DNA of 64,000 bases. Origin: Candidatus Tumulicola sp. (GTDB taxonomy: Bacteria > Vulcanimicrobiota > Vulcanimicrobiia > Vulcanimicrobiales > Vulcanimicrobiaceae). A program made the translations under genes and the position numbers. Each line of letters starts with the position of its first letter. Position 1 is the first letter of the stretch. Location: contig DASXDT010000006.1 in NCBI GenBank assembly GCA_036490475.1, positions 310,001-374,000 on the forward strand. The letters run 5' to 3'. Below, one piece after another: positions 43,125 through 56,819 of this stretch. Under the pieces are notes generated by a model, which was not told where the DNA came from, did not search any database, and was given only the letters and a program-made list of their open reading frames with translations.

Positions 43125-44378
43125 TCACAATTCCGCCACGGACTTCGCCGCCGACAGAGCGCCGAAGCGTACGTGATCGGCCGACGTTCCGCCCTGCAAG
43201 TACACGTCGAACGGTGGGCGCAACGGCGCATCGCACGAGAGTTCGATGGTTGCCCCGGCTACGAACGCACCGCCCGACATGACGACCGGGTCGCGGTAGC
43301 CCGGGACGGGACCGGGCTCGGGCCGGAACCGCGCGTTCAATGGCATCGCGGATTGCAAACCGGCCGCGAACCGCAACAATCGCTCGGACGAGCCCAAACG
43401 AATGGCCTGAACGATATCGGTGCGGCGTTCCCCCGGTTGCGGATCGACGGCGAAGCCGAGTTCGTCAAAAAGCGCGGCCGCAAAATCCAGGCCGCGTAAG
43501 CATTGTTCGACGACGGCCGGTGCGAGAAAAAGCCCTTGCACGAACGCCCGGCCGAATCCAAGTGTCGGCCCCAACGCATCCCCTAAGCCCGGCGCGTAGA
43601 GATAGGCGGCGACGCGATCGACGACGGCGGCCGTACCGGCGATATATCCTCCGCCCGGCGCGATCGAGCCGCCGAGATTCTTAATTAACGAACCCATGAT
43701 TGCATCCGCGCCGGCATGCGTCGGTTCGCGTTCCTCGACCAGTTCGCCGTAACAGTTATCGATCAGCACCAACGCATCGGGATCGATCGCTTTGACCGCG
43801 CGAACGGCGCGCGCACATTCGTCGACCGGAATCGACCGGCGCGGCGCGTATCCGCGCGAACGTTGCAAGAAGACGACCGAAGCACGCTCTTCGGACAGCG
43901 CGCGTTGGAGCGCGCCGGTGTCGACCGTTCCGTCGTCGCACAGGGCGATCTCGCGATAGCGCCGGCCGCGCGCGACCAGGGAGCGCGGATCGTCGACGAT
44001 CGCGTTACGCAACGTGTCGTACGGACGTCCGGTTGCGGCCAGAATGCCGCTGCCCGAGGGCGCGCATGCAGCTAATGCGACGACGATGGCGTGCGTACCG
44101 CTCACGATCGAGAGACGCGCCAGAACGCGCTCGGTGCCAAAAATGCGCGCGAGGAGCGCCTCGTACGTAGCGCGCGCCGCGTCGTCGTACCCGTATCCGA
44201 ACGTACCGGTTAGATCGCTCTCCGCGATGCCTTGCGCGAGAAAGGCATCGAGCACGTTGAGCGCAACCTCGCGCTGCGCGTCGTATACGATATCGCGCGT
44301 CCGTTCGTGCGCGCGTTCGGCAGCCAGGCGAAGTGCGGACGGCAGCGACAAGCGATCGCACATACGGTGGAGGCTCAT
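43125..44378 (-). CDS. PLP lyase, methionine gamma-lyase / 'aluminium resistance' family
   Basis: 417 residues of fold type I PLP enzymes in the YnbB-like family: FGYGYDDAARATYEALLARIFGTERVLAR, SGTHAIVVAL, FLQRSRGYAPRRSIPVDE, LVLIDNCYGELVEEREPTHAGADAIMGSLIKNLGGSIAPGGGYIAG with the probable Schiff-base Lys. The aluminium-resistance name in plasmid studies has little biochemical support; C-S lyase activity is expected. The ATG overlaps the EIIC stop. Confidence 0.88.
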   Translation of the reverse strand: MSLHRMCDRLSLPSALRLAAERAHERTRDIVYDAQREVALNVLDAFLAQGIAESDLTGTFGYGYDDAARATYEALLARIFGTERVLARLSIVSGTHAIVVALAACAPSGSGILAATGRPYDTLRNAIVDDPRSLVARGRRYREIALCDDGTVDTGALQRALSEERASVVFLQRSRGYAPRRSIPVDECARAVRAVKAIDPDALVLIDNCYGELVEEREPTHAGADAIMGSLIKNLGGSIAPGGGYIAGTAAVVDRVAAYLYAPGLGDALGPTLGFGRAFVQGLFLAPAVVEQCLRGLDFAAALFDELGFAVDPQPGERRTDIVQAIRLGSSERLLRFAAGLQSAMPLNARFRPEPGPVPGYRDPVVMSGGAFVAGATIELSCDAPLRPPFDVYLQGGTSADHVRFGALSAAKSVAEL

Positions 44379-45598
44379 ACGCTGAGAGTGCTTTCCAGAT
44401 GGCGTTCGTACGCGCGGACGAATGGGTAATACACGAGCGTCGCGATGCCGATGTTGATCGCTACCAATGCGACGGATCGTACGTCCTGGGTCGCTACATA
44501 CGCCGAAACGAACGACGGAATCGACGACGGCACGTAAAACGCCGCGCGCGCGACGAAGCCGAACGCGACGGCTGCGTACGTCAGCGTCGCGAGAATCAGC
44601 GGAGCGAGGATAAACGGCACGATGAGATATGGATTGAAGACGATCGGCAAGCCAAAGATCAGCGGGTCGTTGATGTTACATAGCGCCGGAAGAATCGTCA
44701 GACGGCCGATCCTCCGCAGATGTTTGACGCGCGAAAACGACAGCATCGCAGCCAACGGCAGCGTCGACCCCGATCCTCCCGGGAAAACGAATAGAAACAA
44801 CGACGTGACCACGATGAACGGCAATGGCGAGTGTGAGGAATATGCGTGCGTGTTTTGCATCTGCATCGTCAGATAGACCGGCGTCACGATCGTAGCCAGC
44901 AATGCCGGTCCGTGGACCCCGGCCGACCACAACAGCGATTGGGCGAGCACGATGACCACCAGCGCGAGGTAAGAATCGCCCATGCGTGCGATCGGGTGCA
45001 TCGCCTCGGCAATAAGGGCCGACGGAACGACCCCAAGCAGCGCGAGTCCCAGGAAAAACGCTATCGCCGTTGCCGCAGCGAGCCATTGACGAGCGACCGA
45101 TTCGCGCGACCGCAGCAACCACGCGAAAAAGGCCGTTAGACCGCACGCCATCATCGCCAAAAACAAACCCGAAGGACCGACCGCGCGCAGATACGCGACG
45201 ACATCGGGAGCTCCGCGATGCGGCAACGCAGCCAAAAAAGCCAACGCGCTGCCGGCGACCATCGGGATGGGCGCGTAGCGCGCACACCTGGCAAATCGCA
45301 ACGGTAGTGCGACCGCCAGAACGGCCGCCATTACGCCGAAGGCGGGCAGCAGCGCGCCGGCGATGCGTAATCCAAGGGACGAGCTGTGACCGAGAGCCGC
45401 GGGCTGCACGAACAACACCGCGACGAAGGCGACGGCTAGACCACCGATACTCCAGGGGAGCGCCTCGCGCACGGCGACGACGAAGGGCCAGTCTCCGAGG
45501 CGGCGCATGACGGGAACCGCCCGCCGCTCGAACCAGGCAAAGAGTGCGGCGCTATAAGCGCCGGACGACGGCCTCGACTCGGCCGAGGATCTCGACAT
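44375..45598 (-). CDS. Stand-alone PTS EIIC permease (lactose/cellobiose type)
   Basis: 407 residues with about ten helices. The beginning FAWFERRAVPVMRRLGDWPFVVAVREALPW and the late NINDPLIFGLPIVFNPYLIVPFILAPL are the EIIC-family hallmarks. No EIIA, EIIB, HPr or EI gene is in view, so phosphorylation-linked sugar transport is unproven and it may act as a facilitator. Its start overlaps lexA by 47 bases; a shorter start at 45508 would remove part of the conserved beginning. Confidence 0.8.
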   Translation of the reverse strand: MSRSSAESRPSSGAYSAALFAWFERRAVPVMRRLGDWPFVVAVREALPWSIGGLAVAFVAVLFVQPAALGHSSSLGLRIAGALLPAFGVMAAVLAVALPLRFARCARYAPIPMVAGSALAFLAALPHRGAPDVVAYLRAVGPSGLFLAMMACGLTAFFAWLLRSRESVARQWLAAATAIAFFLGLALLGVVPSALIAEAMHPIARMGDSYLALVVIVLAQSLLWSAGVHGPALLATIVTPVYLTMQMQNTHAYSSHSPLPFIVVTSLFLFVFPGGSGSTLPLAAMLSFSRVKHLRRIGRLTILPALCNINDPLIFGLPIVFNPYLIVPFILAPLILATLTYAAVAFGFVARAAFYVPSSIPSFVSAYVATQDVRSVALVAINIGIATLVYYPFVRAYERHLESTLSV

Positions 45599-46178
45599 CG
45601 CTCGCGTAGATTGGCGCCATGCTCGGATTCTCCGGCTGCAATCGGACGCGACCCGTCTCCCGGTAGTAGCGCTTGACGGTCGCCTCGCCGTCGAGCATGG
45701 CGACTACGATTTCGCCGTTTTCGGCCGTACGGCGGGGCCGGACGACTAAGAGGTCGCCATCCAAAATCGCCGCGTCGATCATCGAGTCGCCCTGGACGCG
45801 CAGCATGAACGCGTCCGACGCGCGCGGGACGAAATCGGCCGAGAGCAAGAAATCGCCCTCGATATTTTCGGCCGCAGTGATTGGCACGCCGGCGGCGACC
45901 TTTCCGACGATCGGCAGCAGGACGCTGTCGCGAATCGGTTGCTGATCCAAGCTGCTCGAACGCAGCGCTCGAGGCTTGGTAGGATCGCGCGAGATCAACC
46001 CGCGACGTTCGAGCGCTTTCAAATGGGCGTGGATCGTCGAGGTGGACGACAGGCCGACCCGCTGGCCGATCTCACGAACCGACGGCGGGTAGCCGTGCTC
46101 GGCCCTGAAGGCGTCGATCGCTGCCAGAACCTGCGTCTGCTTTTCGGTCGCAGGCCGTTCGCCGGTCGATCCAGCCAT
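45552..46178 (-). CDS. lexA: LexA repressor, self-cleaving
   Basis: ATG at 46178 gives 208 residues. Residues 1-70 form a winged helix (PPSVREIGQRVGLSSTSTIHAHLKALERRGLI). The peptidase domain keeps the Ala96-Gly97 cleavage site (GKVAAGVPIT), Ser132 (QGDSMID) and Lys169 (EATVKRYY). It represses DNA damage genes until RecA filaments trigger cleavage. An SOS box lies about 85 bases upstream, shared with the divergent LysM gene. Extra symmetric elements (tgcca/tggca at 46206-46221 and ggta/tacc at 46231-46244) lie between. Confidence 0.96.
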   Translation of the reverse strand: MAGSTGERPATEKQTQVLAAIDAFRAEHGYPPSVREIGQRVGLSSTSTIHAHLKALERRGLISRDPTKPRALRSSSLDQQPIRDSVLLPIVGKVAAGVPITAAENIEGDFLLSADFVPRASDAFMLRVQGDSMIDAAILDGDLLVVRPRRTAENGEIVVAMLDGEATVKRYYRETGRVRLQPENPSMAPIYASDVEILGRVEAVVRRL

Positions 46179-46262
46179 AATTCTCTCCCATCCGAGGCGC
46201 GACAATGCCACCCATATGGCACCTCAAAACGGTATCACCGTACCATATTCTCAATTTCTTGG

Positions 46263-46276
46263 CAAACATACGTTCG
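46263..46276. promoter_or_regulatory. SOS box (LexA operator), Gram-positive type
   Basis: The site reads CGAACGTATGTTTG on the minus strand, matching the Bacillus/actinobacterial consensus CGAAC-N4-GTTYG at nearly every position. It lies seven bases upstream of the -35 of the LysM gene and within reach of the lexA promoter, so it should control both divergent genes. Confidence 0.8.
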
Positions 46277-46283
46277 ATAAATC

Positions 46284-46314
46284 TTGACATCGCTTGGCAG
46301 CTTCGTGCTAAAAT
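46284..46314 (+). promoter_or_regulatory. Sigma-70-type promoter for the LysM gene
   Basis: TTGACA (46284-46289) and TAAAAT (46309-46314), preceded by TGC as in extended -10 elements, are separated by 19 bases, slightly long. The SOS box ends seven bases upstream of the -35, so bound LexA would hinder RNA polymerase. A 5' leader of about 85 bases follows. Confidence 0.6.
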
Positions 46315-46403
46315 GTAGTGGACGAACAGACGTTTGGCCCTAAATATGGGATTTCCGACCGAAAACCGGGTTTAATCGTACGCTCGCAGGGGAGAAACAA
46401 AAA

Positions 46404-46682
46404 GTGGTAAGGCGCAAACGGTTCACGCTCATGCCGGCGATCGCGCTGGCGGCCCTCAGTCTAATCGTAGCGCTGCCGACGCTCTCGAGCATGCGGCTCT
46501 ATGCCGCCGGCGCTGAGCGGTATGCCAACGTTACGGTGCACCCAGGCGACACGTTGTGGTCGATCGCCGCGGCGCACGATGCCGGAGGCGACATCCAGCA
46601 GACCATCGATACAATCGACGCGGTCAACCACTTGCATGGGGCTGCTCTGCAGCCAGGTCAGAAGCTGCGAATCCCCGAGTAG
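46404..46682 (+). CDS. YneA-like SOS-induced membrane LysM protein (putative division inhibitor)
   Basis: GTG at 46404 with AGGGGAG upstream gives 92 residues: a basic start, one membrane helix (about residues 10-27) and a LysM domain (41-90: VTVHPGDTLWSIAAAH, AVNHLHGAALQPGQKLRIPE). Size, layout, divergence from lexA and the shared SOS box match YneA of Bacillus and related division suppressors of Gram-positives. It would delay septation during DNA repair, acting from the cell-envelope side. Sequence identity to YneA is not claimed; the parallel rests on architecture and context. Confidence 0.75.
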   Translation: MVRRKRFTLMPAIALAALSLIVALPTLSSMRLYAAGAERYANVTVHPGDTLWSIAAAHDAGGDIQQTIDTIDAVNHLHGAALQPGQKLRIPE

Positions 46683-46707
46683 TTCCCGAAAATCAGTGAT
46701 GTGCGAA

Positions 46708-46739
46708 GATGGCGCCCCTTGGGCGCCATCTTTATTTTT
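46708..46739 (+). terminator. Rho-independent terminator after the LysM gene
   Basis: GATGGCGCC (46708-46716) pairs with GGCGCCATC (46722-46730), a nine-base perfect stem with a short loop, followed by TTTATTTTT. It lies 26 bases after the stop, making the LysM gene a single-gene unit. Confidence 0.85.
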
Positions 46740-46753
46740 GGCCGGCGGGCGCT

Positions 46754-46963
46754 TCAGCGCCGCGAGACGAGCACGATGCTGTGACCTTCGTGCTCGTCGA
46801 GAAACGCGAAGCCCTCGGCCATCCACGAGTCGAGGCCCCCGGTCGAGTGCTTCGAGACCTCGCGCACGATGTGGGTGCGGTCTTTGAGCCACCGCAGCTC
46901 GCTGCGCGTCGTCACCGGAAAGATTGCGACCTCGCAATCCTCGCACTTGTAGCCGTATTGCAT
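46754..46963 (-). CDS. Small CxxC protein of unknown function
   Basis: ATG at 46963 (MQYGYKCEDCEVAIF) gives 69 residues. The CEDC pair near the start could bind zinc or form a disulfide, but only one pair is present. The rest reads WLKDRTHIVREVSKHSTGG and ends in VSRR. It is not a known ribosomal or NrdR-type zinc protein. It lies 55 bases after the first receptor gene on the same strand and may be its co-transcribed neighbour. Confidence 0.45.
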   Translation of the reverse strand: MQYGYKCEDCEVAIFPVTTRSELRWLKDRTHIVREVSKHSTGGLDSWMAEGFAFLDEHEGHSIVLVSRR

Positions 46964-47018
46964 CGGTGCCAGCGCTTCGCTCCGCAACGCTCCGGCCCCG
47001 CCGCGCTCGAGCGCTCCC

Positions 47019-50000
47019 CTACAAACGCACCTGTACGGTCATGTATACCTGGAACGGCGAGGCGATCTGGCTCGTCGAGGGCGCGTAGGCCTGATCGAAG
47101 ATCTTCGGGTAGCCGGCCGTGCCGTTCACCGACTGGTGCGGCGAATTACCGTAGAAGTATCCGGCGCCGGCGGTATTGTACGCTTCGCCCGGCGACCAGC
47201 CTAAGTACTCGCTGTTCGGATAATATCCGCAGATGACGCCGTTGGGCGGGTATGCCGCCGTCCACGGCTCGGCCGAACCGCCGAAACACGCGGTCATGAT
47301 GTTTGCAAACATCGCGCTCGCATGGATGCGGGGCGTGATGTCGTAGCCGATCTGCGCGCCGAGATTAAACTCCCACGGCTCGCGATATTGCGCGATACCG
47401 TCGAACTTGCCGGTCACGGGATTCGGTATCGAGATTTCCGACGCGCAGGTTTGGTAATCGCCGTACTTCGAGCCCGGCACTATTCCGAGCTGGCCTTGGT
47501 TATAGATACACGACCGCGGATCGTATCCCGCGAACTCGGCAGGCGAACCGTACTGCGTACCCTCCCAAAGATTGCCGGTCGCGGTAATTTGGAAGCGGTT
47601 GTGCTTGTACGATAGAAATCCGGCAAACACGTTCGGTGGAATGATCGTCGAACCGTCGCCGTCGTTCAGTCCGTCTGGGAAATAGTTGGCGTAGGTCGGA
47701 TAGAACGCGGTCAGCGGATACTGACTCGCGAGTTCGGCATTGGTGTACGTGAACTTGTAGTACGGGTTGTACACCGCGTCCGATTTCTTACAATTTTCGG
47801 GCTTACCATTGGCATAGCACTGCGCGCCGCCGTTGATCTTTTCCAAGCTCACGAACGGTTTTAGCGCGCTCAGCAAGGTCGAGACGATGTTGGTTCCGTT
47901 GATCAACGAGTACTTGAGCTGCGAATACGTATACGTGTACGAAAGCTGGCCCGAGAAGCCGTTTCGCGATGCGTCGCCTTTTTGGATCGCGACTTCCAAG
48001 CCTTGCGTCTTCTGCGTGCCGGAGTTAAACGCGCCGGCGAGGCCACCCGGAAGCGCCACCGACACCGATTGATTGGACGTATACCGATAGTACGGCGAGA
48101 TCTTGTAGCTCCAGTCCGTGCCCTTCAACCGCTGTTCGAACGATGCATCGAAGTTGTTCGAAAACTGGACTGGATTGTTGTGCACGATCGACGCGTAGCC
48201 ATTGTTGTAATATGACGAATCGTACAGATTGGTCGCCATCTGGTAGCCGTCGGGATACGTCAGCACTTGCTCGTCGGCGGTCGGCGTCGGTTGCGTGTAC
48301 CGTCCGTACGAAAAGCGGAAGACGCTATCCGGATTGAACGCATAGGTCAGCCCGAAACGCGGCGATTCGGTGTTATTGGTAATCGTTCCGCTGCCACCGA
48401 GCGTGATTGCCGGTACGCCGTGTTGGCCTGGATGGTAGAGTTTATCGCCGGTGAGCGGATCGGTCGGACATGCGACACCGGGAGCGGTCGTTAAGTAGGA
48501 CGGATATCCGTCTGGAACCAGCCGGAAGCGATCCCGGCCGTTGTTAAAGTCACTCTGATTGACTTGTTGCAATCCGCGCGGGTCGACGCACACCGTCGCG
48601 TTGATTTGGGCGAACCAGAACTGCTGCTCGGCAGACTCGTAATTACCCAGACCGTATCCGTAGCTTTCGAATCGAACGCCCGCGTTGATGTCGAGCTTGT
48701 CACTTGGCCGCCACTCGTCTTGCAGTGCGGCGGTGAGAAATTTTGGACTGACGGTGTTGATGTTGGCATTTTGTTCGAGGTTCTGCGTGAGCTTCCACGT
48801 CGTGCCCGCGGGCGTATCACCCGGAACGGCTTGCAGGCACCCAAAGGTTTTTCCCACTGGACAATTGTTCTGGCCGTGTTGCACTGCATTCACCGGAGCG
48901 CCGGCAAGTGCCGATAGGCACGATACGGGATCCCCGGCTTGCAGCGACTTCGCATAACCCGGGTCGATTAGGCCGCCCTTCTGCTGGTTATTGTACGCCG
49001 CATAGCAGCTACCGTCGGGGGCCTGCAGCGTTGCGATCGGGGTGCCGTTTGCAGAGAACGTATACTGCTGGTTGTTGTTGCGCAACACGCTTGCCGTCGT
49101 ATAGCTTGCCGTGGCGGACAAGAGGTTTTGCTGGTTGATCTGGTCCGAAAAATCGAGATTGAGACCGCGCGTATGCGTATTCAGTTCGTAGTCGCCGGCC
49201 GCTCCGCCGCCGACGTAGAACGGCGTCAGGCCGTAGTTGGGATCGGTCATCAACCAGTCGGAGTAGAACGAATACGCGAAGAATCGCAGAAAAGCGCTAG
49301 ATCCAAAATTCTTGGTGTACTGTACTTTGATGATCGAGCCGTTATTGTTGGTATCGGAGTTTTGATACGGAGAAAATCCGGAGCCGAATGCGCGGTCCGT
49401 AGCCGTGCTCGGAAAGTAATATGGTGCTACGATATTCGGCGAGCCGAGCGCGGATTGTCCGAATTTCGCGCCGACGATCTGTTGTGCGTCGTAGTACGGG
49501 GCGGGAGAATACCCGGTCGACGCACATGGGGGCGACGCACCGAACTCGTTGAAAAGATTGAAATACGCGCACATTCCAGCATACGCCGGCATTTGCGCCG
49601 CCGGCAGCGCATACTTCTTGCCAAATAGGTTGACCATAAACGAGTTGTACGCACCGGATCCATTGGGGTTGCCCGCCGGCGAAAGGTACTGTTGAAAGAA
49701 CGGCAGGCCGCCGAACGTCGAGAGGTTATCCCACGAGGTCGTCTGGTAGAAAAAATTGTCGTAGAGCAGTTGAACGTCGTCGCGTCCGCCGTCGTTCTTA
49801 TGCGGAATGCCGATGTGGAAGTTAATGACGTTTTCGCGATCGCTCAAATCGTCGCCGCCCAGTGCGACGGTCCCCGTCGCTTCCAACGGACTGTACACGT
49901 TACACGTGCCGAGCTTTTTCTGGCCATAGATTTGGGCGATGAGCGGCGAGAGATACGAACCGTTGGCCGGCGCTACTGCGCCACCGTCGATGCACGTCGA

Positions 50001-51029
50001 CCAGGGTCCGCGTGCGCTGGTTCCCAGAATTTCTTCGGGTGGAAGTAACAGCGTATTGAACGAGAAGCCTTGCACCGCATACGGGTTGTCGCCGTCGGGA
50101 TTGAGATTACCACCGTTCTCGTCGTTGTACTCGTATGGGATTTGATTGGTACCGCGAATGCCGACGTACCACGAGAATAAACGGTCTGGCGTCGAGCCGC
50201 CGGCCTCGACTTCGGCTTTGTGATAGTAGGCCGGCGACCCGACGCCGAGGGTCGCGTTGGCGTATCCGGGAAACGTTCCGGTCTTGATGACCTGGTTGAT
50301 GTAGCCGCCCAGCGTCGGAGACGTCGCGTTAGCGGGACCACCGCCGGTGTACACTTCGACCGACGAAGCGCCCAAGTTGGACAGCGAGCTGGCCTGATAG
50401 TTGTCGAACGAACGGTTGACGGGCACGCCGTCGAACTCGTAACCGATCTGGTTATAGCTCGAACCGTGGATGAAAAAGACTTGCCCGAAACCGTAGTTGC
50501 CCGGCAAGCCTAACACGCCGGGCTGCTGGTAGATTGCCGAATACGAGCTATCGAGATTGTTGCCGCCGGCGCCGGTGGCGAGCTGCGCTGCCGTCGCCGA
50601 GTTGACCGCGTAGACGTCGACCGTCGTGCCCGGTTGCACCAACGTCCCGCGCGCCTGCGACGTCACGTTCGCGATGTTCTTCAGCGACTTGCGAAGCAGC
50701 AGTTGAAGGGTCAGGTTTTGATCGGCGAAGACCGTCACGCCCGCGGTCGACGCGCCGCCGAATCCGTTCTTATCTGCCGTGACGACGTATGTATCGGGTG
50801 CGAGGGTCAGAAACGCGAAGTGCCCCGAAGCGTCCGAAGTCGTCGTGGCATTTTGCGATGGGGACGAAGCTCGAACGACCGCGCCCGCGACGGCGGCGCC
50901 GCTTTCGTTCACGACGCGGCCGCTCAGCGCACCGGTCGTGCCGGCCAAGCCCCATGCCGGAGCGAGCAAAAAAGTGATCGCACAAATACCGGCCGTGCCA
51001 ACCCGCCGGACGATGCCACGAATACTCAT
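47019..51029 (-). CDS. TonB-dependent receptor with N-terminal carboxypeptidase-regulatory-like domain (paralogue 1)
   Basis: 1336 residues. ATG with a strong GGAGG site. A signal peptide (about 1-30) precedes a CarboxypepD_reg-like beta sandwich (about 32-115: GALSGRVVNESGAAVAGAVVRASS..., GHFAFLTLAPDTYVVTADKNGF). Next comes the plug (VYAVNSATAAQL...QPGVLGL...VFFIHGSSYNQIGYEFDGVPVNRSFDNY...YINQVIKTGTF) and a long 22-strand barrel with repeated 'RFESYGYGLGNYESAEQQFWFAQ'-type strands. It resembles Oar-like receptors. Substrate unknown. It ends in VYMTVQVRL, the barrel-assembly signal. Confidence 0.9.
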   Translation of the reverse strand: MSIRGIVRRVGTAGICAITFLLAPAWGLAGTTGALSGRVVNESGAAVAGAVVRASSPSQNATTTSDASGHFAFLTLAPDTYVVTADKNGFGGASTAGVTVFADQNLTLQLLLRKSLKNIANVTSQARGTLVQPGTTVDVYAVNSATAAQLATGAGGNNLDSSYSAIYQQPGVLGLPGNYGFGQVFFIHGSSYNQIGYEFDGVPVNRSFDNYQASSLSNLGASSVEVYTGGGPANATSPTLGGYINQVIKTGTFPGYANATLGVGSPAYYHKAEVEAGGSTPDRLFSWYVGIRGTNQIPYEYNDENGGNLNPDGDNPYAVQGFSFNTLLLPPEEILGTSARGPWSTCIDGGAVAPANGSYLSPLIAQIYGQKKLGTCNVYSPLEATGTVALGGDDLSDRENVINFHIGIPHKNDGGRDDVQLLYDNFFYQTTSWDNLSTFGGLPFFQQYLSPAGNPNGSGAYNSFMVNLFGKKYALPAAQMPAYAGMCAYFNLFNEFGASPPCASTGYSPAPYYDAQQIVGAKFGQSALGSPNIVAPYYFPSTATDRAFGSGFSPYQNSDTNNNGSIIKVQYTKNFGSSAFLRFFAYSFYSDWLMTDPNYGLTPFYVGGGAAGDYELNTHTRGLNLDFSDQINQQNLLSATASYTTASVLRNNNQQYTFSANGTPIATLQAPDGSCYAAYNNQQKGGLIDPGYAKSLQAGDPVSCLSALAGAPVNAVQHGQNNCPVGKTFGCLQAVPGDTPAGTTWKLTQNLEQNANINTVSPKFLTAALQDEWRPSDKLDINAGVRFESYGYGLGNYESAEQQFWFAQINATVCVDPRGLQQVNQSDFNNGRDRFRLVPDGYPSYLTTAPGVACPTDPLTGDKLYHPGQHGVPAITLGGSGTITNNTESPRFGLTYAFNPDSVFRFSYGRYTQPTPTADEQVLTYPDGYQMATNLYDSSYYNNGYASIVHNNPVQFSNNFDASFEQRLKGTDWSYKISPYYRYTSNQSVSVALPGGLAGAFNSGTQKTQGLEVAIQKGDASRNGFSGQLSYTYTYSQLKYSLINGTNIVSTLLSALKPFVSLEKINGGAQCYANGKPENCKKSDAVYNPYYKFTYTNAELASQYPLTAFYPTYANYFPDGLNDGDGSTIIPPNVFAGFLSYKHNRFQITATGNLWEGTQYGSPAEFAGYDPRSCIYNQGQLGIVPGSKYGDYQTCASEISIPNPVTGKFDGIAQYREPWEFNLGAQIGYDITPRIHASAMFANIMTACFGGSAEPWTAAYPPNGVICGYYPNSEYLGWSPGEAYNTAGAGYFYGNSPHQSVNGTAGYPKIFDQAYAPSTSQIASPFQVYMTVQVRL

Positions 51030-52913: not shown

Positions 52914-55900
52914 CTAGAGACGGATCTGAGCGTTAAAGTAGACTTGGAATGGAATCGCGTTGAACAGCGGTTGATACTGCTGGTTGAATACTCCAGGGTA
53001 TCCCGCCGTTCCGTTGGCCGGATCGTGACCGGAGGCTCCGTAGAAGAATCCCGCACCCGGCTGATTGCCGACGTACGCGAAACCGTTCGGGGCGTATCCG
53101 CACACAATACCGTTCGGCTTGTACGCCGCGGTCCAATTTTCGGCCGAACCGCCGAAGCAGGTGTTGACGACGTTCGCCAACGTCGCGGTCAGTTGAATTC
53201 GCGGCGTCACTGCGTACCCGAACTGCAAGCCCATATTGAGCTGCCACGGTTCGCGGAACTGCGTTAAGCCGTCGAAGTTACCCGTCTGCGGATCGGGAAT
53301 CGCGAGATATCCCGAGGTGACCGCACCCGAAAAACCGCAGGACTGGTAGTTGGCATACCCTTTGTATGGTGCACCGATGCCCGCGACGCCGCTCTGGTTG
53401 GCCGAGCATACGCGCGGATCCAGACCGACGATCGCAAGCGGAGAACCGTAGGTCGTGCCTTCGTTGAGAATGGCGTTCACCGTCGCCGTGAAGCGATCGT
53501 GCTTGAAGTTCAAGAAGCCGGTGAACACGTTGGGTGAGATGGCCGAGGACGTTACCGTATCCGGCGACGACTGCGGCGGGTTGTTCGCGTACGTATCGTA
53601 CCAACCGTTGCGATCAAGCGTACCTTGGAGCGAGTCCCCGTAGTACGGATTCGCGATCGGTTGTTGCTTCGCTCCACAAACGCCGTTTTGCGACCCTCCG
53701 TTGCTTCCATTTGGGCCTTTCCCGTTGGTGCAATACCAGGGAGAACCGCCGCCTGCTTTGGTGAGACCGTTGAACGCCGTGATGTATCCGTTGATCACGT
53801 CGATGGCGTTCGAACCGTTCGCCAACGTACTGTATTTGATTTTCGCGTTGGTGTAGGTGTAGCTGAGCTGACCCGACAGACCGTTGCGTGACGGGTCGCC
53901 TTTTTGAATGGCGAGCTCGACACCTTCGGTGCGCTGCGTCGCGGCGTTAATCGCCGAGGCGAAGCTTCCGCCCAACGATACCGTCACGAGCTGGTTGGTC
54001 GTGTATCGATAGAATGGCGACAGCTTGAGCGTGACGTCCGTTCCCTTCAGATGCTCTTCGAACGACAAGTCGTAGTTGTTCGAAACCTGCACGGGATTGT
54101 CGTGGTTCGGCGTGTCGAATCCGAGCCCCCAGAAGTGCGTGAAGTCGAACTTCGCGGCCCCCAGGCCCGATGCGTTGAGGTACTGCTCGTACGCGGTTTG
54201 CGTCGGTTGCGTGTACCGGCCGTAGCTGAAACGAACGACGGTGTTCGGATCGAATGTGTACGTCCCGCCGACGCGCGGCGACCATTCGGGATGTGAGAAA
54301 CCGTTAACGCCTTGGTTGGTGTACAGCATGCTTCCGTTCTTACCGTTCGGATGCAGCGCTTGTTTGCCGGACGGGGCGATGAGCGGTGAACCACCCGATT
54401 CGTAACACAATCCGGGCTTTTCGGCGGATCCGCTATTCGGAGCGATCACCGGGCCGGCTTGGCTCGGCGGCGATCCGAGCGGCACTTGCACGAGAATCGG
54501 CTGTCCCGTACCCGGATCGTAACAATAGGCGTTGGCCGCTTGCGCGAACCAGAAGTTGTTCTCGGCAGTGTCCGTATTCTGGAGATCGTAAACGTAACTT
54601 TCGAAACGAACGCCGAGGTTGAGGTCGAGTTTATCGTTCGGACGAAACTCGTCTTGGAGCGCCGCCGACGAAAACTGCGGTTGCACCTCGTTGATCGTAC
54701 CGTAGCCTTGCGGCACGGTAACGATGAAGTTCGCGTTGGCCGCGCAAGCAGGCGAATTTTTCGGAAGATTCGCGCAGGCGCTTCCGCCGCTCCACGTCGA
54801 TGGCGTCGGGTTCGAGTACGATCCCGCTGTGCCATTCTCGAGGCAGTTAGATAACGCTCCGGAGCCTGCGTCGTAGCACTGACCGTTGGCGCCCACCAAG
54901 TTCGTCACATTGCCCGGTGCGGCGTACCATTGGTTGTTCCAGCGCGTTACATTCGCCGTCGTGTAGTTGCCGGTGAAGGTCAACAAGTTTTGCGCGTTGA
55001 CCTGATCTGCCGCCTGCAGTTGAAGTCCGCGCGTATGCGAGCTCAACTCGTAATCGGGCGACGGATAATCGGCGCCGGTGCTGAGGTAGCCATATCCGGT
55101 CACGAATTGGCCGGCGAAATTGGCCGACGACATGAGCCAGTCGGAATAGAACGTATAGCCGAGCAATCGCACGTAGGCGTTCGAACCGATATTCTTCTGG
55201 TATTGCAGCTTGATGATCGAACCGTCGTTCCACGTGGTATCGAGGTTCGTCGGCGAGATGCCCGCACCGGGACTGTGTTGGACTTGGCTCGGTGCGAAAT
55301 ACGTCGTCGATCCGACACCAGTGGCGCTCTGACCGAACGTCGTGCCGGGATTAAAGATCGTCGTGTCGGCGTAGCGCAGCGGAGATCCGCCGGTCGTCGC
55401 GCACGCGCCCGGACCGAACAGCACCGCGTTGTATCCGCACAAGTTGCTATACGGCCCATTGAGACCGTTATATGCTCCCGCGCCGAAGGCTTCGGCGTAT
55501 CCGCTGGGTCCGCCCCAGCCGGCGAGGTTGCTGTTTAAGAAACCTAAACCGCCCTGTTGATCGATCGAGCCACCGAACTCTTGGTGATATCCAAAGTTGT
55601 AAAACAACGCTTGGATATCATCGCGGCCGGCATCGCCATGATGGGGGATGCCGAAGTGGAGGTTGATGATGTTCTCACGATCTTGCGTCACCAACGGCGT
55701 GCCCAGAAAGCCCGAGCCCGCCCATGGTGCGTAGGAGTTACAAACGGGGATGATGTTTACCGATGCGCCCTTAGGCGGCCCGTTGGGCGTACACGTCGAG
55801 TACGGACCGTTTCCGTAGTCGGTGAATACACCGGCGATCGGGTTGAAGTCCGACGAAAAGATTCCGTCTGGACCGCTGCCGTCGGTCGGAATCCCGGCAC

Positions 55901-56819
55901 CGTTATTGTTGTCGATCGTGTTGTACGTTTGATTGTTGCCTTGGATGCCGACGTACCACGAGAACAAACGATCGGGCGTCGCGCCGCCGGCTTCGACGCC
56001 GGCCTTATGATAGAAGCCCGGCGTACCGATGCCGAGATTTGCTTGCGCATACCCCGGGAACGTGCCGGTCTTAATCACCTGGTTGACGTAGCCGCCGAGC
56101 GTTGCCGACGAGCCGCCGGCAGGCGAGCCGCCGGTGTACACTTCGGTCTCTTGCGAGCCTAAGTTTGAAAGCGATTGGCCGTTATAGTTGTCGAACGCGC
56201 GGTTGACGGGGATCCCGTCGTACTCGTAGCCGACTTGACTGTACGCCGAACCGCGAATGTAGTAGACCTGGCCGAAGCCATACATGCCGATCTGCGACGT
56301 TACGCCAGGCTGCGAATAAATCGCAGAGTAGGCGCTGTCGAGATTGTAGCCACCGCCGGTGCCTTGCACCGCTTGCTGGGTGGCGGAATTGACAGAGTAG
56401 ACGTCGGCTGTCGTACCGGATTTAACGAGGTTTCCGGACGCGGTCGACGACACGTGAACGATCGTTTTTAGGGCACCCTTTTGCACCCGCAGAGCGAGAT
56501 TTTGAGCTTGGTCGGCAAAAACGACCACGCCCGGGTTGGAGGCTGGTGCGTACCCTGGCTTGCTCACCGAAACGATGTACGTGTCGGGCGCAAGCGAGAG
56601 GAACGAAAAATGGCCGCCGCCGTCGGTGGTGGCGGTAACCGTCTGCGAAGCGGACGCGGCTTTGACCGCGGCGCCCGCGACGGGGGCTCCGGTTTCGTCG
56701 GTGACTTGGCCGCTGAGGCCGCCGGTCGTTCCCGCCAGAACCCATGTTCCCTGGACGAGGAATGCGACCAGGAGCGCAACTGCCAAACCCGCTCGACGAA
56801 GCGTGCGTGAAGTACTCAT
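52914..56819 (-). CDS. TonB-dependent receptor, CarboxypepD_reg type (paralogue 2)
   Basis: 1301 residues, close paralogue of the next gene. Signal peptide (about 1-29), CarboxypepD_reg-like domain (about 30-115: GGLSGQVTDETGAPVAGAAVKAASAS), plug (VYSVNSATQQ..., QVYYIRGSAYSQVGYEYDGIPVNRAFDNY) and barrel. Extracellular loops carry many Cys in short CxxxC-like or C...G contexts. The start ATG has a CGAGGAGC site. The C-terminus reads VYFNAQIRL. It would import an unknown ligand with TonB energy; no ligand-specific gene is beside it. Confidence 0.92.
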   Translation of the reverse strand: MSTSRTLRRAGLAVALLVAFLVQGTWVLAGTTGGLSGQVTDETGAPVAGAAVKAASASQTVTATTDGGGHFSFLSLAPDTYIVSVSKPGYAPASNPGVVVFADQAQNLALRVQKGALKTIVHVSSTASGNLVKSGTTADVYSVNSATQQAVQGTGGGYNLDSAYSAIYSQPGVTSQIGMYGFGQVYYIRGSAYSQVGYEYDGIPVNRAFDNYNGQSLSNLGSQETEVYTGGSPAGGSSATLGGYVNQVIKTGTFPGYAQANLGIGTPGFYHKAGVEAGGATPDRLFSWYVGIQGNNQTYNTIDNNNGAGIPTDGSGPDGIFSSDFNPIAGVFTDYGNGPYSTCTPNGPPKGASVNIIPVCNSYAPWAGSGFLGTPLVTQDRENIINLHFGIPHHGDAGRDDIQALFYNFGYHQEFGGSIDQQGGLGFLNSNLAGWGGPSGYAEAFGAGAYNGLNGPYSNLCGYNAVLFGPGACATTGGSPLRYADTTIFNPGTTFGQSATGVGSTTYFAPSQVQHSPGAGISPTNLDTTWNDGSIIKLQYQKNIGSNAYVRLLGYTFYSDWLMSSANFAGQFVTGYGYLSTGADYPSPDYELSSHTRGLQLQAADQVNAQNLLTFTGNYTTANVTRWNNQWYAAPGNVTNLVGANGQCYDAGSGALSNCLENGTAGSYSNPTPSTWSGGSACANLPKNSPACAANANFIVTVPQGYGTINEVQPQFSSAALQDEFRPNDKLDLNLGVRFESYVYDLQNTDTAENNFWFAQAANAYCYDPGTGQPILVQVPLGSPPSQAGPVIAPNSGSAEKPGLCYESGGSPLIAPSGKQALHPNGKNGSMLYTNQGVNGFSHPEWSPRVGGTYTFDPNTVVRFSYGRYTQPTQTAYEQYLNASGLGAAKFDFTHFWGLGFDTPNHDNPVQVSNNYDLSFEEHLKGTDVTLKLSPFYRYTTNQLVTVSLGGSFASAINAATQRTEGVELAIQKGDPSRNGLSGQLSYTYTNAKIKYSTLANGSNAIDVINGYITAFNGLTKAGGGSPWYCTNGKGPNGSNGGSQNGVCGAKQQPIANPYYGDSLQGTLDRNGWYDTYANNPPQSSPDTVTSSAISPNVFTGFLNFKHDRFTATVNAILNEGTTYGSPLAIVGLDPRVCSANQSGVAGIGAPYKGYANYQSCGFSGAVTSGYLAIPDPQTGNFDGLTQFREPWQLNMGLQFGYAVTPRIQLTATLANVVNTCFGGSAENWTAAYKPNGIVCGYAPNGFAYVGNQPGAGFFYGASGHDPANGTAGYPGVFNQQYQPLFNAIPFQVYFNAQIRL

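Follow-up and report, generated by a model that had tools for sequence, protein, structure and literature searches.

The window, a 64,000-nucleotide stretch of a 3.32-Mb Eremiobacterota (WPS-2) genome, carries a gene for a 208-residue SOS repressor, lexA, at 45552-46178 on the minus strand. The product matches TIGR00498 with 224.5 bits (E 1e-66), which passes the equivalog cut-off of 110.95, and it comprises a Bacillus-type helix-turn-helix and an S24 autoprotease domain (Pfam LexA_DNA_bind and Peptidase_S24). In the LexA alignment, the Ala-Gly cleavage site and the Ser/Lys dyad of S24 are seen (KVAAGVPI, GDSM, ATVKR), and the recognition helix is nearly identical to that of Bacillus LexA. Across a gap of 225 bp, and divergent from lexA, a gene with a GTG start encodes a 92-residue protein with a transmembrane (TM) helix and a LysM domain (46404-46682, plus strand; Pfam LysM, 44.1 bits). 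This gene is followed by a predicted intrinsic terminator (46705-46739, plus strand) and therefore looks like a single-gene unit. Directly downstream of lexA, at 44375-45508 on the minus strand, lies an orphan gene for a PTS EIIC-like membrane protein (Pfam PTS_EIIC); its start was set at a conserved Met, the longest ORF beginning at 45598, inside lexA. A 77-residue ORF without a Pfam match (46754-46987, minus strand) is conserved in this neighbourhood in 25 of the 35 relatives compared.

Two palindromic boxes of the form CRAAC-N4-GTTYG, with centres 60 bp apart, were found by pattern match in the gap between lexA and the LysM gene, and both are conserved in relatives. Box 1, CGAACGTATGTTTG (46263-46276, minus strand), is proximal to lexA, overlaps its likely -35 and sits just upstream of the -35 of the LysM gene; box 2, CGAACAGACGTTTG (46323-46336, plus strand), covers the position where transcription of the LysM gene is expected to start. 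As observed in an alignment of 17 intergenic gaps from relatives, the boxes flank the LysM-gene promoter (46284-46314, plus strand), which is composed of TTGACA (46284-46289), a 19-nt spacer and an extended -10, TG-N-TAAAAT (TAAAAT at 46309-46314, plus strand); TTGAC(A/T) and most of the extended -10 are invariant. A consensus promoter scan reported no promoter in the gap, because this spacer is longer than the limit of 18 that the scan allows. On the lexA side, a putative -10, TATGGTA (TACCATA on the plus strand; 46241-46247, minus strand), is conserved among the aligned relatives. The lexA leader also holds an inverted repeat, TGCCA-N6-TGGCA, at about 46206-46222 of the window, which is conserved in most relatives and could be a site for another regulator. 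A leader hairpin formed by this repeat was considered, and folding gave it no support (z -0.98).

A chance match of the boxes was ruled out by genome density, a reversed control and conservation in relatives. The genome has 43 matches to the pattern CRAACNNNNGTTYG versus 22 to the reversed control pattern, and from the genome density 0.003 sites are expected in the 225-bp gap, where two were observed (Poisson P about 4e-6). The other matches within coding regions were counted as noise, since roughly half of the total would be expected from the reversed control. At least two boxes are present in 57 of 58 distinct (non-identical) intergenic regions of relatives, about 60 bp apart in most, and the only exception is a gap truncated beside N's in the assembly; a third box is often found 40 bp further towards the LysM gene. 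The initial annotation had described lexA and a 92-residue membrane LysM gene as divergent genes that share an SOS box of Gram-positive type, in an arrangement like that of Bacillus lexA-yneA. The arrangement is borne out, as the two genes are divergent in all 58 distinct loci, with two boxes in the gap and not one. The Gram-positive type also holds, both for the recognition helix of LexA and for the DNA, where the box adjacent to lexA in Bacillus tequilensis, CGAACCTATGTTTG, shares the orientation of box 1 and differs from it at a single base.

In orientation and position, box 1 corresponds to the box adjacent to lexA in Bacillota and Coriobacteriia, which would fit boxes that autoregulate lexA only and that the LysM gene merely adjoins. 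We regard this as very improbable, however, given that box 2 lies over the expected LysM-gene start and is kept in 57 of the 58 regions, often with the third box, and that the LysM gene has a promoter of its own, set between the boxes, and is followed by a separate terminator.

The same motif recurs at other genes of the window's genome, where it stands 15 bp upstream of imuA, the gene leading into imuB, and also precedes dnaE2. The imuA-imuB genes and dnaE2 are classical SOS mutagenesis genes. At all 31 recA loci examined in the family, a box stands before recA or before the ftsY-recA unit. From its place before these genes we take the motif to be an SOS box, and it is a predicted LexA operator. 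The gene ftsY, for the SRP receptor, usually precedes recA (G000:C5:417456-419336, which is locus L183; L197-L226), and in 31 of 31 loci the box is either upstream of ftsY or in the space between the two genes, which suggests that ftsY-recA is an SOS-controlled unit. SOS-like boxes were also observed before genes for a tyrosine recombinase, a TnsA-like endonuclease and a DarT ADP-ribosyltransferase and before an HTH gene (L182 2327, L191 2426, L180 2357, L190 2422), and these suggest damage-triggered mobile elements. This regulon outline was obtained by a pattern search of the genome and by reading the stretches around the matches. No earlier SOS-box definition or regulon outline for Eremiobacteria was found in the open-access literature searched, and the locus yields both.

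The LysM protein is laid out as a short basic N-terminus, a TM helix (about residues 9-28), a linker and a LysM domain (residues 43-91), and the basic N-terminus points to a topology in which the LysM domain is predicted to be periplasmic. An AlphaFold2 model (mean pLDDT 75.5) contains a helix at residues 10-28 and a LysM beta-alpha-alpha-beta fold; its best Foldseek matches are LysM domains, with E-values that are weak for so small a model. BLASTP aligned the protein end to end with YneA of Bacillus tequilensis at 32% identity over 95 columns, and this alignment, together with the TM-LysM architecture, agrees with its first description as a YneA-like protein. Against the NCBIfam YneA equivalog NF010723 it scored 54.7 bits, below the cut-off of 60, which was reached by none of the 388 genomes searched; having missed this cut-off, the protein is termed YneA-like here. 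Two further copies of the LysM gene are unlinked to lexA (genomes G129 and G124; L300 2022-2297 and L301 1778-2038). They were considered as independent SOS targets and rejected, since boxes were found at neither, and the LysM family is therefore not always SOS-controlled.

Mean pairwise identity within the class is 0.71 for the TM segment, 0.60 for the LysM domain and 0.52 for the linker. The TM segment is thus the most conserved part of the protein, which makes it unlike a mere signal peptide, and residues L9, P11, L15, L18 and P25 are invariant in Eremiobacteria. A conserved LYAA stands just after the TM segment, and this segment may be a cleavable signal. In Bacillus, YneA binds FtsW via its TM helix and requires the LysM residues D46, T47 and I81, the first two of which it needs in order to bind peptidoglycan and to be toxic (PMC13396833). 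D46 and T47 correspond to D49 and T50 of the LysM protein, which are kept in 93 and 89%, respectively. The critical residues by which the YneA TM helix targets FtsW are K5, E6, F10, V11 and F14 (PMC13396833); in the alignment, these are not recognisably conserved in the TM segment of the Eremiobacteria protein. The FtsW/RodA family is present, the FtsW TM7 stretch that contacts YneA differs in Eremiobacteria, and no clear counterparts of the TM7 residues V204/P206 emerged when these were mapped onto FtsW of Eremiobacteria.

Taking into consideration the gene arrangement, the boxes, the promoter, the class-wide conservation, the regulon outline and the predicted fold, all of them read from sequence, we think it likely that the locus controls the SOS response of a diderm bacterium and includes a division checkpoint of the YneA type. 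LexA binding, induction, contact with FtsW and division arrest would follow by analogy with characterised systems. In an undamaged cell, LexA would sit on both boxes of the gap, keeping the LysM promoter shut and damping its own. RecA filaments formed on damaged DNA would lead to self-cleavage of LexA, and both promoters would open. The open LysM promoter would yield the small protein, with its single TM helix and its LysM domain in the periplasm; by analogy with YneA, the helix would reach the divisome, with FtsW as the best candidate partner, and the LysM domain would be held over nascent septal glycan, so that septation would be delayed until repair. This mechanism is drawn by analogy because the TM residues of YneA are not recognisable in the LysM protein. 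In the characterised Gram-positives, single-TM inhibitors adjacent to lexA are the rule (PMC6851548).

The LysM gene might instead be a true LexA target whose product is a damage-induced envelope factor and not a division inhibitor, namely a protein that binds the wall, or activates hydrolases, to stabilise or remodel it. LysM domains have many wall functions, the FtsW-targeting residues of YneA are not conserved, LysM paralogues without SOS boxes exist, and the orphan chitobiose-type EIIC gene in the same locus suggests an amino-sugar or wall theme. Nevertheless, we consider such a role unlikely: the protein carries no catalytic domain, it agrees with the proven inhibitor YneA in architecture, size, gene position and regulation, and the strong conservation of the TM segment suggests a specific membrane partner.

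Of the 35 named class relatives (L001-L035), 34 have the EIIC gene directly downstream of lexA; outside the class Eremiobacteria, no copy was seen in the vicinity of lexA. Its product matches the chitobiose/cellobiose EIIC 3qnq with an E-value of 3e-33. PTS enzyme I was detected in none of 14 genomes by a search that was positive in 7 of the 14 well-known genomes used as controls. Probably lexA and the EIIC gene form an operon and are co-transcribed, and the EIIC gene would therefore be damage-induced. That the locus forms one SOS-driven, two-part envelope module, consisting of a TM-LysM division inhibitor and an orphan chitobiose-type EIIC working without a phosphotransferase system, strikes us as rather improbable; if true, DNA damage would be coupled to septal wall synthesis and to the traffic of amino sugars or wall fragments.

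The distribution of the locus was followed in a phylum sample of 149 genomes, 117 of which belong to the window's class, Eremiobacteria, which comprises uncultured bacteria of soil. The lexA gene is present in 105 of the 117 class genomes and the LysM gene in 102 of these 105; it lies beside lexA wherever contigs allow, the three other lexA genes being at contig ends. By the Omp85/BamA criterion the cell plan is diderm, Omp85 having been found in the window's genome and in 10 of 10 class genomes, and outer-membrane receptor-like ORFs lie near the locus at 47019-51029 and 52914-56819. LPS genes and BamA have been reported for the phylum, with a published diderm assignment (PMC6664022). Loci of Coriobacteriia and Bacillota carry the lexA-LysM pair too, and it is known in Bacillus, Listeria, Mycobacterium and others (PMC6851548).

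The 16 lexA loci inspected from other classes of the phylum showed no TM-LysM neighbour. A wider search covered 388 genomes with the YneA model, about 240 of them of other phyla, and surveyed lexA in 160; this survey reached lexA genes similar enough for detection and the neighbourhoods of the best-scoring loci. Divergent lexA-LysM pairs were seen only in G202, G345 and G259, the third by coordinates, and Omp85 was found in none of these three genomes; among the 60 lexA loci that matched best, 58 lacked the pair. The initial annotation had placed the locus in a diderm host with outer-membrane receptors, for which the nearby receptor-like ORFs and Omp85 now speak, and had suggested a checkpoint that is older or more widespread than Gram-positives, or was acquired, with a survey of lexA neighbourhoods in related phyla as a check. 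The wider spread stands for Eremiobacteria, where the pair is class-wide; the 16 loci sampled from the other classes lack the pair, and the wider survey added only the three Omp85-negative genomes. YneA-type checkpoints have so far been described as a Gram-positive trait. As the pair is class-wide in the diderm Eremiobacteria, the checkpoint probably extends beyond Gram-positive bacteria. A checkpoint fixed in a diderm class is a natural test of whether such inhibitors act on the conserved FtsW core whatever the envelope.

The window's LexA is 51-57% identical to LexA of Coriobacteriia and Bacillota and about 32-46% to that of other classes of its own phylum. In the LexA tree the sequences of the class are united in a single clade (99) next to Coriobacteriaceae (SH-aLRT 93), within a Bacillota/Actinomycetota group, and 12 of 16 LexA from other classes of the phylum fall elsewhere. 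This tree position leads us to lean towards acquisition of the lexA-LysM block from a monoderm donor, Actinomycetota- or Bacillota-like, an origin that is compatible with the checkpoint explanation and competes only with ancestral retention. The higher identity to Coriobacteriia and Bacillota and the confinement of the wider-survey pairs to three Omp85-negative genomes point the same way. On the other hand, LexA is short, the LysM protein has no long cytosolic N-terminus of the Coriobacterial kind, and a tree constrained to keep the whole phylum together was 57 log units worse with a p-AU of 0.0875, a value at which a single phylum clade is not rejected. Ancestral retention of the block, which we hold possible but doubtful, agrees with the box next to lexA, near-identical and in the same orientation in Bacillota and Eremiobacteria, and with the diderm ancestral cell plan that has been argued for in this region of the tree (PMC6664022); it is at odds with the sampling, in which none of the 16 loci taken from the phylum's other classes has the pair and, in the wider survey, 58 of the 60 lexA loci that matched best lack it. 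Acquisition thus appears somewhat more likely than retention, and the locus also tests whether the lexA-yneA block existed before the outer membrane was lost or was transferred between lineages of different cell plan.

Several known systems resemble the locus. SosA of Staphylococcus, DivS of Corynebacterium and SidA/DidA of Caulobacter are likewise small, damage-induced membrane division inhibitors (PMC6851548, PMC3989709, PMC6051672), although no LysM domain has been described for them; SidA and DidA act in a diderm, the likeness being one of description. ChiZ (Rv2719c) of Mycobacterium tuberculosis, also compared by description, is lexA-linked and combines a TM segment with a LysM domain (PMC6851548, PMC3989709). 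The same holds for the lexA-linked LysM proteins of Coriobacteriia, but these have a long cytosolic N-terminus (about 137-170 residues in all) that the window protein lacks. From YneA the protein differs in its diderm host, in its NF010723 score of 54.7 against 60 bits, in its other conserved TM residues and in the missing C-terminal tail, and the boxes are about 60 bp apart in Eremiobacteria versus about 30 at Bacillus lexA-yneA. Like YneA of Bacillus subtilis and relatives, however, it is encoded divergently from lexA with boxes of the GAAC-N4-GTTC type, and it shares with YneA the basic N-terminus, the single TM segment, the extracytoplasmic LysM domain with a GDTLWSIA motif and a length of about 90-105 residues.
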